Of a stretch of DNA of 64,000 bases, positions 4,959-53,483 are shown one piece after another. Every line of letters starts with the position of its first letter. The first letter of the stretch is position 1. The translations under genes and the position numbers were made by a program. Below the pieces are notes generated by a model, which worked only from the letters and a program-made list of their open reading frames with translations, was not told the origin of the DNA and made no database searches. The stretch comes from Pseudopyrenochaeta lycopersici (taxonomy: Eukaryota > Ascomycota > Dothideomycetes > Pleosporales > Pseudopyrenochaetaceae): contig NHZP01000012.1 in NCBI GenBank assembly GCA_003313425.1, forward strand, positions 1,364,001 to 1,428,000, read 5' to 3'.

Positions 4959-4964
4959 AAAAAA
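4959..4964 (-). terminator. RNA polymerase III terminator of tRNA-Pro
   Basis: Six A on the plus strand, so TTTTTT on the transcribed minus strand, six bases beyond the last tRNA nucleotide at 4971. Further T runs follow. This is the expected Pol III termination signal and supports transcription of the tRNA by Pol III. Confidence 0.75.
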
Positions 4965-4970
4965 GAGATC

Positions 4971-5122
4971 GGGCCTGACCGGGATTCGAACCCGGGGCCT
5001 GTCACATAACAGATACACTGTATCCAGGCGAGTAACCCGAAGCGACAATCATACCACTAGACTGGAGGATGTTAGGAGAGGGAGGAGATTTGAGGGAGGT
5101 AGTTTTGCTTACCCATCAGGCC
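4971..5122 (-). tRNA. tRNA-Pro(CGG) with two introns
   Basis: Minus-strand tRNA gene of 152 nt. The 3' half is standard: T arm CCGGG-TTCGAAT-CCCGG with a perfect B box (GGTTCGAATCC), 3' acceptor strand TCAGGCC and discriminator C at 4971. The anticodon loop TTCGGGT gives CGG (5039..5037, proline). A canonical 29-nt intron (5007..5035) follows position 37; the stem GTCGC/GTGAC pairs with one G-U. Upstream of TCTAGTGGTATGATT the expected 5' end is missing, but it is found 51 nt further out at 5122..5113 as GGCCTGATGG. This gives seven of seven acceptor pairs plus the proline-typical TGG. The intervening 5112..5062 looks like a spliceosomal intron. Removing both introns leaves exactly 72 nt with all stems intact. 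If the second intron cannot be removed, this copy is a pseudogene. Confidence 0.85.
5062..5112 (-). other. spliceosomal-type intron inside the tRNA D arm
   Basis: 51 nt between tRNA nucleotides 10 and 11. On the minus strand it starts GTAAGC, contains CTAAC at 5075..5071 and ends CAG at 5064..5062, with pyrimidine-rich sequence between. Length, donor, branch site and acceptor match the protein-gene introns of this window (46-60 nt). It shows no obvious bulge-helix-bulge pairing of the type used by tRNA endonuclease at non-canonical sites, although I could not fold it. Confidence 0.7.
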
Positions 5123-6285
5123 GACTTTTATTGCAGATGGCAAAATTTGAAATTACAGTATATATGTAGTTTATACAACAAGTCAAACGGTGAGAGTCAC
5201 GTGATTCAATACGCTTAGTGACGGATTGTGGGCCTTTGCGCTGTCGACGCGTGGGTCAGCTTTACCGGTTTGAGAAGACTTTGCGAAAGATATCTTTGGA
5301 ACACAGCTTCACTATTGTTGTTGTGCAAGGCTCCGTCTGTTGAGCTGTCCATCCCACTCTGGTCGATATGCTCATGACCCAACAGAAGATCATGACGTCC
5401 GGGTTGCGGGATGTGATGATTTGGTTCATCATAGTGGACGAAGAATGACTGACAAGCAGCTTATCAGTCTGCCCTGCACGAAGCTGATTGGAGCCCTTTC
5501 CAAGCGCCCGGCTCAGCCAACTCGTGCCTGTATGATCGGCTCTCCGCCAGCAGTGCCGCTGCATAAGCTTCCGTGACGAGTTGCACAGTGCATTGCGGCA
5601 TGGCTGAAGTCGATGCCCCTGGCGGACGTGCGTTCAACAAAGTCGGCACACCGACATTATCGCGCGATGGCGTCAACCTTCAGAGTACCCGGAAAAGCTA
5701 CGGCAGCGCCGCCGCGTCGCGTGTGCCGTGGATTGCCGCGGCCCAGACACGGATATGGCAGACAGATTACCAAACATTGTCTTTGATAAGGGATAGATGA
5801 CTGTTTCGAGCATGCTTCAATGTGTATTAAAGTGCGGGGACAAAGTGCTGGGCAGGTCAAGTGGATCTCGTCCATTGGCTCGGGTCGTGCGGTAGACTGC
5901 AATCAGCATAGTACACGCGTCCAAGCTCTTTGCGATGCGTTGAGCATAACGGACATGAGGGCTGCATCCCCGAATTGCCAATGAAGCGGGCGAATTTATG
6001 AACAATTCGTGGAATTGAATAGCTACACACCCTGTTGACCGCCTTCCGAAACCTTCCAGAAGACAGCCAAGGGTGCCGACCGTTGTTGTGCGACTCTGCT
6101 CAAAAGCGGGCAGCTTCCCCTCACCTTTCTCCATTGCTCATTCCTCCCACCACGTCTCGCGTCTAACGGACTCCGAAGACGTCCGCTGCCACAGTCCAAT
6201 TGATTCCGTACTACTTGCAATTTAATCTTTGTACTAATCGCTACCTCCTGCTCCTTCCTTCTACCTCACCTCACATCCCACAACC
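5123..6285. other. intergenic region
   Basis: About 1.15 kb upstream of the tRNA and of the gene at 6286. Short ORFs on both strands show no family resemblance. The final 100 bases (about 6200-6285) are rich in CT and CA, fitting a fungal promoter and 5' UTR. No repeat or RNA gene was seen. Confidence 0.45.
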
Positions 6286-52230: not shown

Positions 52231-53483
52231 ACAAACGAGAATAGGGAACGCAGCAAAGGCAGGCTCAGTCGAGCATCTAGAGGTCAAGCAAGAAAGAGGC
52301 ATAGCTAGACACAGTGATACCACAACACATTGAACAGCACAAGCAAAAGCATAGAGGAATTGAGTAGACATGAATTCGATTGGAGCAAAACTATATAAGC
52401 CGTCAAGTTTATCAGATACCGTCGTAGAAAATTCAGCAGTGGCCATCCTACCCTTTGGGATTCAGACAGCCTCAGTGCTTGACTCTATTTCTATTTTGAT
52501 CATCATGTAAACCCGATTAATGGCTGAAAGGATCTGGCTTGTTCGACCAAGCACGCATAGCCCGCCCATGAGGTTGATCAATGAAGAACAGTTCCAAGGG
52601 ACGCCTACCGTCAGATCCGAAAAGTTTGGAAGGAACGTTCCTCGCGTCAAGAATAAGCCCCATTGAGTTACCCCCCACACGCCTCGCATGAGCAAGACGG
52701 CAGAAGGCAATCGCATAACCATAGACTGGACGAGAAGACCCTCCATACCTTGCAATCCCCCGGCACATCCCTCCTCCTCGTGTTTTCCAACAACCCTTCA
52801 GCGCACAGGCAAGGTAGCCAGCGGACTCATATCATCGCCCAGGGGCCAGCTCCTCCGCCTGCGGCATCGAGAAAGCGAAGAACAAGAGTGCAGGCGGAAA
52901 AGAGGGCGAAGAAGAGCGTAAAGCGGTAGAGAGGCCGCGCTTCTGTGGCGGTTCGTTGCTGAAAGTGCGATCGCGAGAATCGATGTCCGGGGACTTTCTC
53001 CCAAAGCGTAGGTGGAGAGATGCCCGGAGGCACTCTGTGTGTGTGCTTCGTTGCGATTCTTTGAGCGAGGAACGTTGGAGGGAAAGAAAGCTGGGGCTCG
53101 AGGAAAATACTAGTTGCTCCGGCGGCCGGGCAAAGGTAAAGCCGTTGGACTAGGCAGCGCTAGGCGGTGATTGGGCTGGCGCCTTGCCAGGGTGCCTGGG
53201 GAGCTTTGGACTGCAGGCTTTCTTTGCGCAGCGCGTCGGTCAAGGACATAAAGAGTCTACAGCGGAACATTGAGATTGTGCGCCTCTTGGATCCTTTTCC
53301 TCACAGCCGGGAATATCTTCAGCCTCTATCTTGTACCATCGACCAGGCGCGAGCAAGAATAAGCCTGCCTCACCTACCAGAGCTTAACAACACAAGGCTC
53401 GCGCACAGCTCCACTGCCGCCTACCCACTGCCGCCCCAAACGCCAATCCAACCCGCCCAACGCGCGGAACATAACTGAGCAAC
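52231..53483. other. intergenic region and RAE1 5' flank
   Basis: 1.25 kb between same-strand genes. Short arginine-rich ORFs overlap on both strands at 52663..53033 without recognisable family. The last 150 bases are a CA- and CT-rich leader ending AGCAACATGGC at the RAE1 start. Confidence 0.45.

Follow-up and report, generated by a model that had tools for sequence, protein, structure and literature searches.

In eukaryotes, nuclear tRNA introns sit at position 37/38 and have no GT-branch-AG consensus, and spliceosomal introns are normally coupled to Pol II. What, then, is to be made of a tRNA-Pro(CGG) gene of Pseudopyrenochaeta lycopersici in which a second insert, in the D arm, looks like an mRNA intron? 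The gene lies in the window, the whole stretch of 64,000 nt analysed here (C12:1364001-1428000; the assembly has 62.7 Mb in 188 contigs). The initial annotation had left three readings: the spliceosome processes a Pol III transcript, the transcript is also made by Pol II, or a recent intron gain has killed this copy. The first is the best supported, given the GT-AG fits, the identity of paralogs and the T-runs described below. Judging from the sequences, the insert is very probably spliceosomal, of the U2 type, and the nuclear tRNA-Pro(CGG) gene around it a working one; at least 13 tRNA genes of this fungus carry introns of this kind, and the spliceosome would splice their Pol III transcripts.

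The window gene and its two introns

The gene and its surroundings comprise the following features.

4971-5122, minus strand: tRNA-Pro(CGG) gene with two introns of different kinds, 152 nt, 72 nt once both are removed
5113-5122, minus strand: exon 1, positions 1-10 (5' strand of the acceptor stem plus TGG), GGCCTGATGG
5062-5112, minus strand: 51-nt spliceosomal-type intron at 10/11, with GTAAGC, CTAAC (A 10 nt from the 3' end) and CAG
5036-5061, minus strand: exon 2, position 11 to 37 (D arm to anticodon CGG)
5007-5035, minus strand: 29-nt canonical-type tRNA intron at 37/38, by its position a presumed substrate of tRNA endonuclease
4971-5006, minus strand: exon 3, position 38 to the discriminator base, with an intact B box at 4982-4992
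4959-4964, minus strand: T6 run, presumed Pol III terminator, separated by six bases from the tRNA 3' end
5159-5164, minus strand: TATATA, presumed TFIIIB/TBP site, starting at -42 from the tRNA 5' end

The 5' acceptor strand was confirmed base for base 51 nt upstream of its expected place, with 7/7 pairing, and the acceptor stem forms in both folds, unspliced and joined. The letters of the insert also read as had been described, from GTAAGC through CTAAC nine bases before the end to CAG, and its tail after CTAAC is ATCCTCCAG. Just two placements of the 51 nt yield the same product, GT-AG and GG-CA, and exon 1 is the same as the 5' end of Pro(TGG), which has no intron there. The second, canonical intron after position 37 was found at 5035-5007, and the Pol III terminator six bases downstream is the T6 run at 4964-4959. 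The joined 72 nt had been said to keep every stem intact. The length was confirmed and the stems can pair, although the MFE fold of the joined tRNA shows the acceptor, anticodon and T stems and not the D stem. Joined Pro(CGG) and spliced Pro(TGG) are identical at 64/72 positions.

Position 37/38 is thus taken by the 29-nt insert, which we presume to be a canonical tRNA intron since those occupy this place, and not by the 51-nt insert at 10/11. The anticodon was assigned as CGG because eukaryotic tRNA introns sit at 37/38 and the gene matches Pro(AGG) and Pro(TGG). ARAGORN and Rfam at gathering reported no tRNA in the unspliced window gene. When the spliced and unspliced forms were compared, as the initial annotation had proposed, ARAGORN called a tRNA only after splicing; it placed the 29-nt intron elsewhere and named the tRNA Lys(ctt). 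A count of other Pro(CGG) genes, also proposed there, found no second copy in the genome, and the sole match of a whole-genome search with the gene including its intron was the window copy.

The insert had been likened to mRNA introns all over the window. Two introns supported by protein homology have the same build (this comparison set is n=2): one of 52 nt in TCF25 (GTAAGT...CCCTAAC...CAG, A 11 nt from the end) and one of 56 nt in KEX1 (GTAAGA...GCTGAC...CAG, A 13 nt from the end). The TCF25 of the window is 82% identical to that of Pyrenochaeta and 81% to that of Cucurbitaria, and its KEX1-like protein is 89% identical to the Neocucurbitaria one, which places the host within or close to the Cucurbitariaceae (order Pleosporales). 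In the window at large the generic pattern GTRNGY..CTRAY..YAG was in no clear excess (40 matches versus 25-44 in ten simulations). Because this pattern is not clearly enriched, the evidence lies in the exact fit of the inserts to exon junctions, not in the motifs alone.

Interrupted tRNA genes in the genome

The observation made on a single gene could be extended. A partial survey of the genome found 13 nuclear tRNA genes, the window gene being one, that carry 16 spliceosomal-type introns at eleven positions; as search patterns and lists covered the genome partially, 13 is a lower bound. B-box sites and RF00005 matches served as input, short stretches were fetched, and pairing in the T stem and the acceptor stem was demanded. 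The other 12 genes are listed here, with intron positions numbered by eye.

C1:883724-883863: Gln(CTG), intron at 18/19 (B-box survey)
C6:486857-486994: Gln(CTG), intron at 11/12 (B-box survey)
C39:259779-259917: Gln(CTG), intron at 11/12 (B-box survey)
C7:323301-323453: His(GTG), intron at 11/12 (B-box survey)
C7:1244938-1245083: Leu(TAG), intron at 13/14 (B-box survey)
C7:1460990-1461132: Ile(AAT), intron at 13/14 (B-box survey)
C8:1035345-1035483: Ala(CGC), intron at about 26/27 (B-box survey)
C19:979586-979726: Glu(TTC), intron at 13/14 (B-box survey)
C5:1163227-1163472, minus strand: Asp(GTC), introns at 15/16, 30/31 and 48/49 (by eye)
C3:1552470-1552676: second His(GTG), introns at 11/12 and 58/59 (by eye)
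C8:1070078-1070240: Ile(TAT), intron at 68/69 (by eye)
C20:243501-243656, plus strand: Pro(TGG), T-loop intron at 54/55, 53 nt, GTAAGT...TCTAACAGGCGCACAG

Eight of the 13 genes were recovered without requiring GT-AG, by B box, T stem and acceptor pairing alone. The introns are 50-57 nt long (mean 52.6). All 16 begin with GTRNGN (GTAAGT in seven), contain the branch motif CTRAY (CTAAC in 12, CTAAT in three, CTGAC in one) and end in YAG with the branch A 10-14 nt from the 3' end. For every intron, GT-AG is among its 1-5 slide-equivalent placements. The chance of these fits under random insertion is about 10 to the -34.5 with 16 independent cases assumed, a figure that is too strong given shared introns and by-eye junctions, although not in a way that matters. 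Furthermore, paralogs that lack an intron at the corresponding site confirmed the junctions of the Ala, Gln and Pro genes and of the T-loop intron of His. At most 14 independent gains are required, because the 11/12 introns are shared by the two His genes and by the Gln genes on C6 and C39. Group I and II introns have a catalytic core of some 200 nt or more; self-splicing introns of these groups were rejected for inserts of 50-57 nt, and Rfam at gathering gave only tRNA matches over 20 loci.

Could a relaxed tRNA endonuclease remove the inserts instead, at bulge-helix-bulge sites? In the consulted part of PMC4090602, introns at non-canonical tRNA positions, sometimes several per gene, are described for archaea and for Cyanidioschyzon merolae, so that such introns do exist in some eukaryotes, and in both respects the genes found here are alike. 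However, a central 4-bp helix in the canonical register, looked for with a simple script, was present in 0/16 introns and, slid by one, in 3/16; a bulge-helix-bulge at the cut sites had been named in the initial annotation as the sign that would point to this enzyme. The endonuclease pathway also has no call for GT...CTRAY...YAG, which is present in 16/16. We regard removal of the inserts by this route as extremely unlikely.

The Asp(GTC) gene on C5 has three spliceosomal-type introns and a canonical-type one, and two of its exons are 15 nt long. Three other Asp genes have the canonical-type intron only. In the Ile(TAT) gene, the bases GAC follow the supposed 3' splice site, and the 5' acceptor strand predicts a T next; the extended stretch reads GACTA, in line with this, and has a T5 run downstream.

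Standard tools mostly overlook these genes. In unspliced form, ARAGORN missed 11/13 and misnamed two. Once spliced, all 13 were called as tRNAs, ten with the expected anticodon; Pro(CGG), the second His gene and Ile(TAT) were misnamed because ARAGORN places the canonical intron elsewhere. Rfam at gathering likewise missed 11/13 unspliced loci (the Asp stretch was scanned without its first exon) and found Ala(CGC) on C8 and Ile(TAT). Among six control loci without such an intron it found four and missed the two Pro(AGG) genes. A possible further tRNA at C3:1018720-1018960, also missed by Rfam at gathering, has a T-stem GT-AG insert with a poor donor and no U33 seen; it was not counted. Neither was a tRNA-like sequence at C71:158677-158957, for which ARAGORN gives Ile(tat) and an insert of 72 nt.

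Several searches define the scope of the survey. Whole-genome lists for the B boxes GGTTCGATTCC, GGTTCGAATCC and GGTTCGASYCC gave 34, 11 and 62 matches versus 36, 19 and 146 for reversed-pattern controls, so that many matches are due to chance, the counts being about equal to or below the controls. Of 73 stretches newly fetched from B-box matches, 52 held no tRNA. Other B-box variants were followed among the matches listed, on contigs C1 to C11 (counts 36 + 143), and RF00005 scoring covered 63 of 2106 candidates. A tRNA-Pro pattern (D loop to anticodon, up to three mismatches) matched 22 times; the Pro count rests on the four exact matches (two AGG, one CGG, one TGG), the other 18 having 2-3 mismatches and one of them being Ala(CGC) at C3:1118048. 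In both Pro(AGG) genes the sole intron is of the canonical type, with a length of 17 nt according to ARAGORN. The His pattern gave four matches: both His genes exactly, and two others with three mismatches. The Gln(CTG) genes came via the B-box survey, not via a Gln-specific pattern. A search for introns at 54/55 returned 13 matches, of which C20 alone proved on reading to be a tRNA.

ARAGORN named 52 distinct sequences on the nuclear loci fetched, two being misnamed interrupted genes and a few others doubtful. With 13 interrupted genes against these 52, about one fifth of the nuclear tRNA genes seen in this incomplete survey are interrupted. Contig C107 (45,414 bases) is dense in tRNA matches and probably mitochondrial; many of its matches recur 32,607-32,608 bases apart, as if it were partly assembled twice. 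Uninterrupted tRNA-Pro-like sequences were found in three MAG contigs, which are not close relatives, and none were found in viral contigs.

Need for the spliced products and the polymerase

Paralogs served as empty sites. Spliced His on C7 and on C3 agree at 70/70 positions, the three Gln(CTG) genes, interrupted at 11/12 or 18/19, are identical after splicing at 71/71, and spliced Ala(CGC) on C8 agrees at 72/72 with the C3 copy that has no such insert (we set the 37/38 boundaries in these comparisons ourselves, with a possible error of one or two bases). Pro(CGG) and Pro(TGG) show each other's empty site, since the D arm is intact in TGG and the T arm in CGG. The shared introns are alike at 38 of 54 columns for His and 43 of 55 for Gln (70-78%), compared with an all-pair mean of 57.6% by the same method, and the upstream flanks of the paralog pairs are alike at 36 of 64 and 36 of 69 columns (52-56%). 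With identical mature sequences over such introns and flanks, the exons were held while introns and flanks drifted. Gene conversion of exons between paralogs could, too, underlie intron drift without exon drift.

Are the spliced products needed? Every gene found is interrupted for four tRNAs: His(GTG) with two genes found, Gln(CTG) with three, and Pro(CGG) and Pro(TGG) with one each. Histidine codons are read by His(GTG) only, and by the wobble rules CCG codons need a CGG or UGG anticodon. At least one of Pro(CGG) and Pro(TGG) must therefore be spliced, unless a gene was missed. ARAGORN named no uninterrupted His, Gln, Ile, Pro(CGG/TGG), Glu(TTC) or Leu(TAG) gene on the nuclear loci fetched; this is weak evidence, because Trp, Phe, Tyr and Gln(TTG) genes, interrupted or not, were missing from the same loci too. 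Copies of His, Gln or Pro that are divergent in sequence or otherwise split and have no such intron may exist beyond these searches. We conclude that the spliceosome probably has to splice tRNA genes that the cell can hardly live without.

This bears on the view that a recent intron gain kills the gene and makes the window copy a pseudogene. It would account for the failure of ARAGORN and Rfam to detect a tRNA in the unspliced gene. Also in its favour, the three-intron Asp copy coexists with the Asp genes that have a canonical-type intron only, and the interrupted Ala(CGC) with an Ala(CGC) without the insert. However, it fits badly with 13 genes that share the same kind of intron, His, Gln(CTG), Pro(CGG) and Pro(TGG) among them in every copy found, and with paralogs whose mature sequences are identical despite diverged introns. 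Even the Asp copy keeps its pairing across four exons (by eye, acceptor 7/7 with one G-U, anticodon stem 5/5, D stem 3/4). A killed copy is accordingly rated as very unlikely.

Which polymerase reads working genes of this kind? Downstream of each of the 13 genes lies a T4-T7 run whose first base is the 3rd to the 18th after the gene (5.5% expected per 22 nt), and six of the 13 have a TATAWW that begins between -38 and -45 (0.5% expected per 13 nt; the range was picked post hoc); for both signals the background was random stretches of the window and not uninterrupted tRNA genes. The B box scores 9/9 in 11 of 13 genes and 8/9 in the two T-loop cases, and in Pro(TGG) an 8/9 match sits inside the intron (shuffle mean 7.0). 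The signals outside the introns make Pol III transcription of the interrupted genes likely. Two findings count against it: TTTT occurs in the canonical intron of Pro(TGG), and the spliceosomal-type introns showed no significant depletion of T-runs (one seen versus 3.3 expected, P 0.13). In three Leu(AAG) genes (L165, L168 and L181) the 3' flank starts with GCATTCGTC, and this trio, unlike the 13 interrupted genes, has no T4 run in 29 downstream bases.

The A box is a further point against. Positions 10-19 hold 10 of the 16 introns, and the A boxes restored by splice sites in the unspliced genes were no better than those with shuffled introns, so Pol III initiation is hard to explain. In the window gene, for example, with its B box of 9/9 and its T6 run, the A box is split and the best remaining match is 6/8, versus a shuffle mean of 6.0. 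The same observation, together with the usual coupling of spliceosomal introns to Pol II, speaks for a longer capped Pol II transcript on which the spliceosome acts and from which RNase P and RNase Z excise the tRNA. However, the T-runs in all 13 genes, the TATA motifs in six and the B boxes argue against it, and U6, which belongs to a class made by Pol III, has an intron of the same kind. Given chiefly the T-runs and the TATA motifs, transcription by Pol II is less likely than by Pol III, and we consider it improbable.

The genome has two U6 matches above cut-off. The one on C19 (C19:201228-201322 and downstream), whose core we take to be standard, has a 52-nt GT...CTAAC...CAG intron near its 3' end, and its removal joins CTCA to ATCAAAGAGAAGCTACC. 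This intron carries a B-box-like GTTCGAGAC, comparable to the intronic B-box match in Pro(TGG). The match on C14 (C14:415719-415826) is uninterrupted and slightly deviant in its core, with a B-box-like GGTTCGAACGC downstream of its T-run. An RNase MRP RNA was also noticed in the window (52640-53071, minus strand; 88 bits; 432 nt versus 266 for the model); a pattern search found no GT-CTRAY-AG intron in it.

For spliceosomal processing of Pol III transcripts, the following course is proposed. Pol III would read from the upstream start to the T-run. From the motifs, the spliceosome would recognise GTRNGN, the CTRAY branch site and YAG, and join the exons via a lariat. The 37/38 intron, by its position, would be taken out by tRNA endonuclease and ligase, and RNase P, RNase Z and CCA addition would complete the tRNA. 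Two splicing systems would be needed wherever a precursor has both kinds of intron, because spliceosome and endonuclease each remove one. The sequences, the junctions and the paralog identity of the spliced products are established, whereas we infer the enzymes and the polymerase. Ten of the 13 genes have a first exon of 10-18 nt, and Ile(TAT) ends in an exon of 5 nt; exons as short as these are a further point against, being very short for splicing.

Precedents and meaning

The S. pombe U6 intron carries a B-box-like element, as the C19 U6 does here, and a study by Canzler from 2016 reportedly dealt with U6 introns. According to the consulted part of a later paper, frequent interruption by an intron is known, among small structured RNAs, for U3 and U6 only, and U6 introns are known in fungi (Canzler, 2017; PMC5832005). 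The U6 genes of Schizosaccharomyces pombe and other fungi are alike in placing a short spliceosomal intron in a small structured Pol III RNA, and are for this reason a precedent for the tRNA case. However, the hosts here are tRNAs, many of them needed for translation, with introns at many positions, and the precursors bear a second intron of the tRNA-endonuclease type. Canonical nuclear tRNA introns, of which the 29-nt window intron is presumably one, also interrupt nuclear tRNA genes; they differ from the present inserts in lying at 37/38 and in their lack of the GT-branch-AG consensus. The introns of C. merolae and archaea differ by the bulge-helix-bulge, absent in canonical register from the 16 introns here, all of which have spliceosomal signals.

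Introner-like elements are a route of intron gain in the Dothideomycetes, as far as the excerpt of Collemare (2015; PMC4457414) goes, and the word tRNA is absent from that paper. Being a form of intron gain in the same fungal class, they are a possible source of the tRNA introns. An introner-like element was nevertheless rejected, as the window gene with its intron finds only itself and the 16 introns are not alike. Their mean pairwise identity is not above background, and the highest value, 78%, belongs to a gene pair that shares its intron; the tRNA introns therefore did not arise by recent copying of a single element.

By the standard account, nuclear tRNA splicing does not depend on the spliceosome (PMC13149111, in the part consulted). 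Exact-phrase queries on spliceosomal tRNA introns gave 0 matches in open-access papers, and no report of such introns was found in open-access titles and abstract openings, a scope mostly outside subscription papers and preprints. Each part is known, in that U6 is a Pol III gene with an mRNA-type intron, but needed tRNA genes that require the spliceosome were found nowhere in the literature searched.

If our reading is true, Pol III transcripts are broadly open to the spliceosome, even where first exons measure 10-18 nt, a last exon measures 5 nt and a cap is presumably absent. It would help to explain why tRNA genes are missing from annotations, as ARAGORN and Rfam each miss 11/13 in unspliced form. 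The way in which splice sites are recognised without Pol II could be tested directly in this system, as could the invasion of essential RNA genes by introns. We think it quite likely that this is a lineage in which the spliceosome is an essential tRNA-processing enzyme: a large share of isoacceptors (His, Gln, Ile, Pro, Leu and Glu among those found) would be made only by splicing Pol III transcripts, usually also cut by tRNA endonuclease, after repeated intron gains that fell most often in the A box, and translation capacity would be coupled to mRNA splicing.
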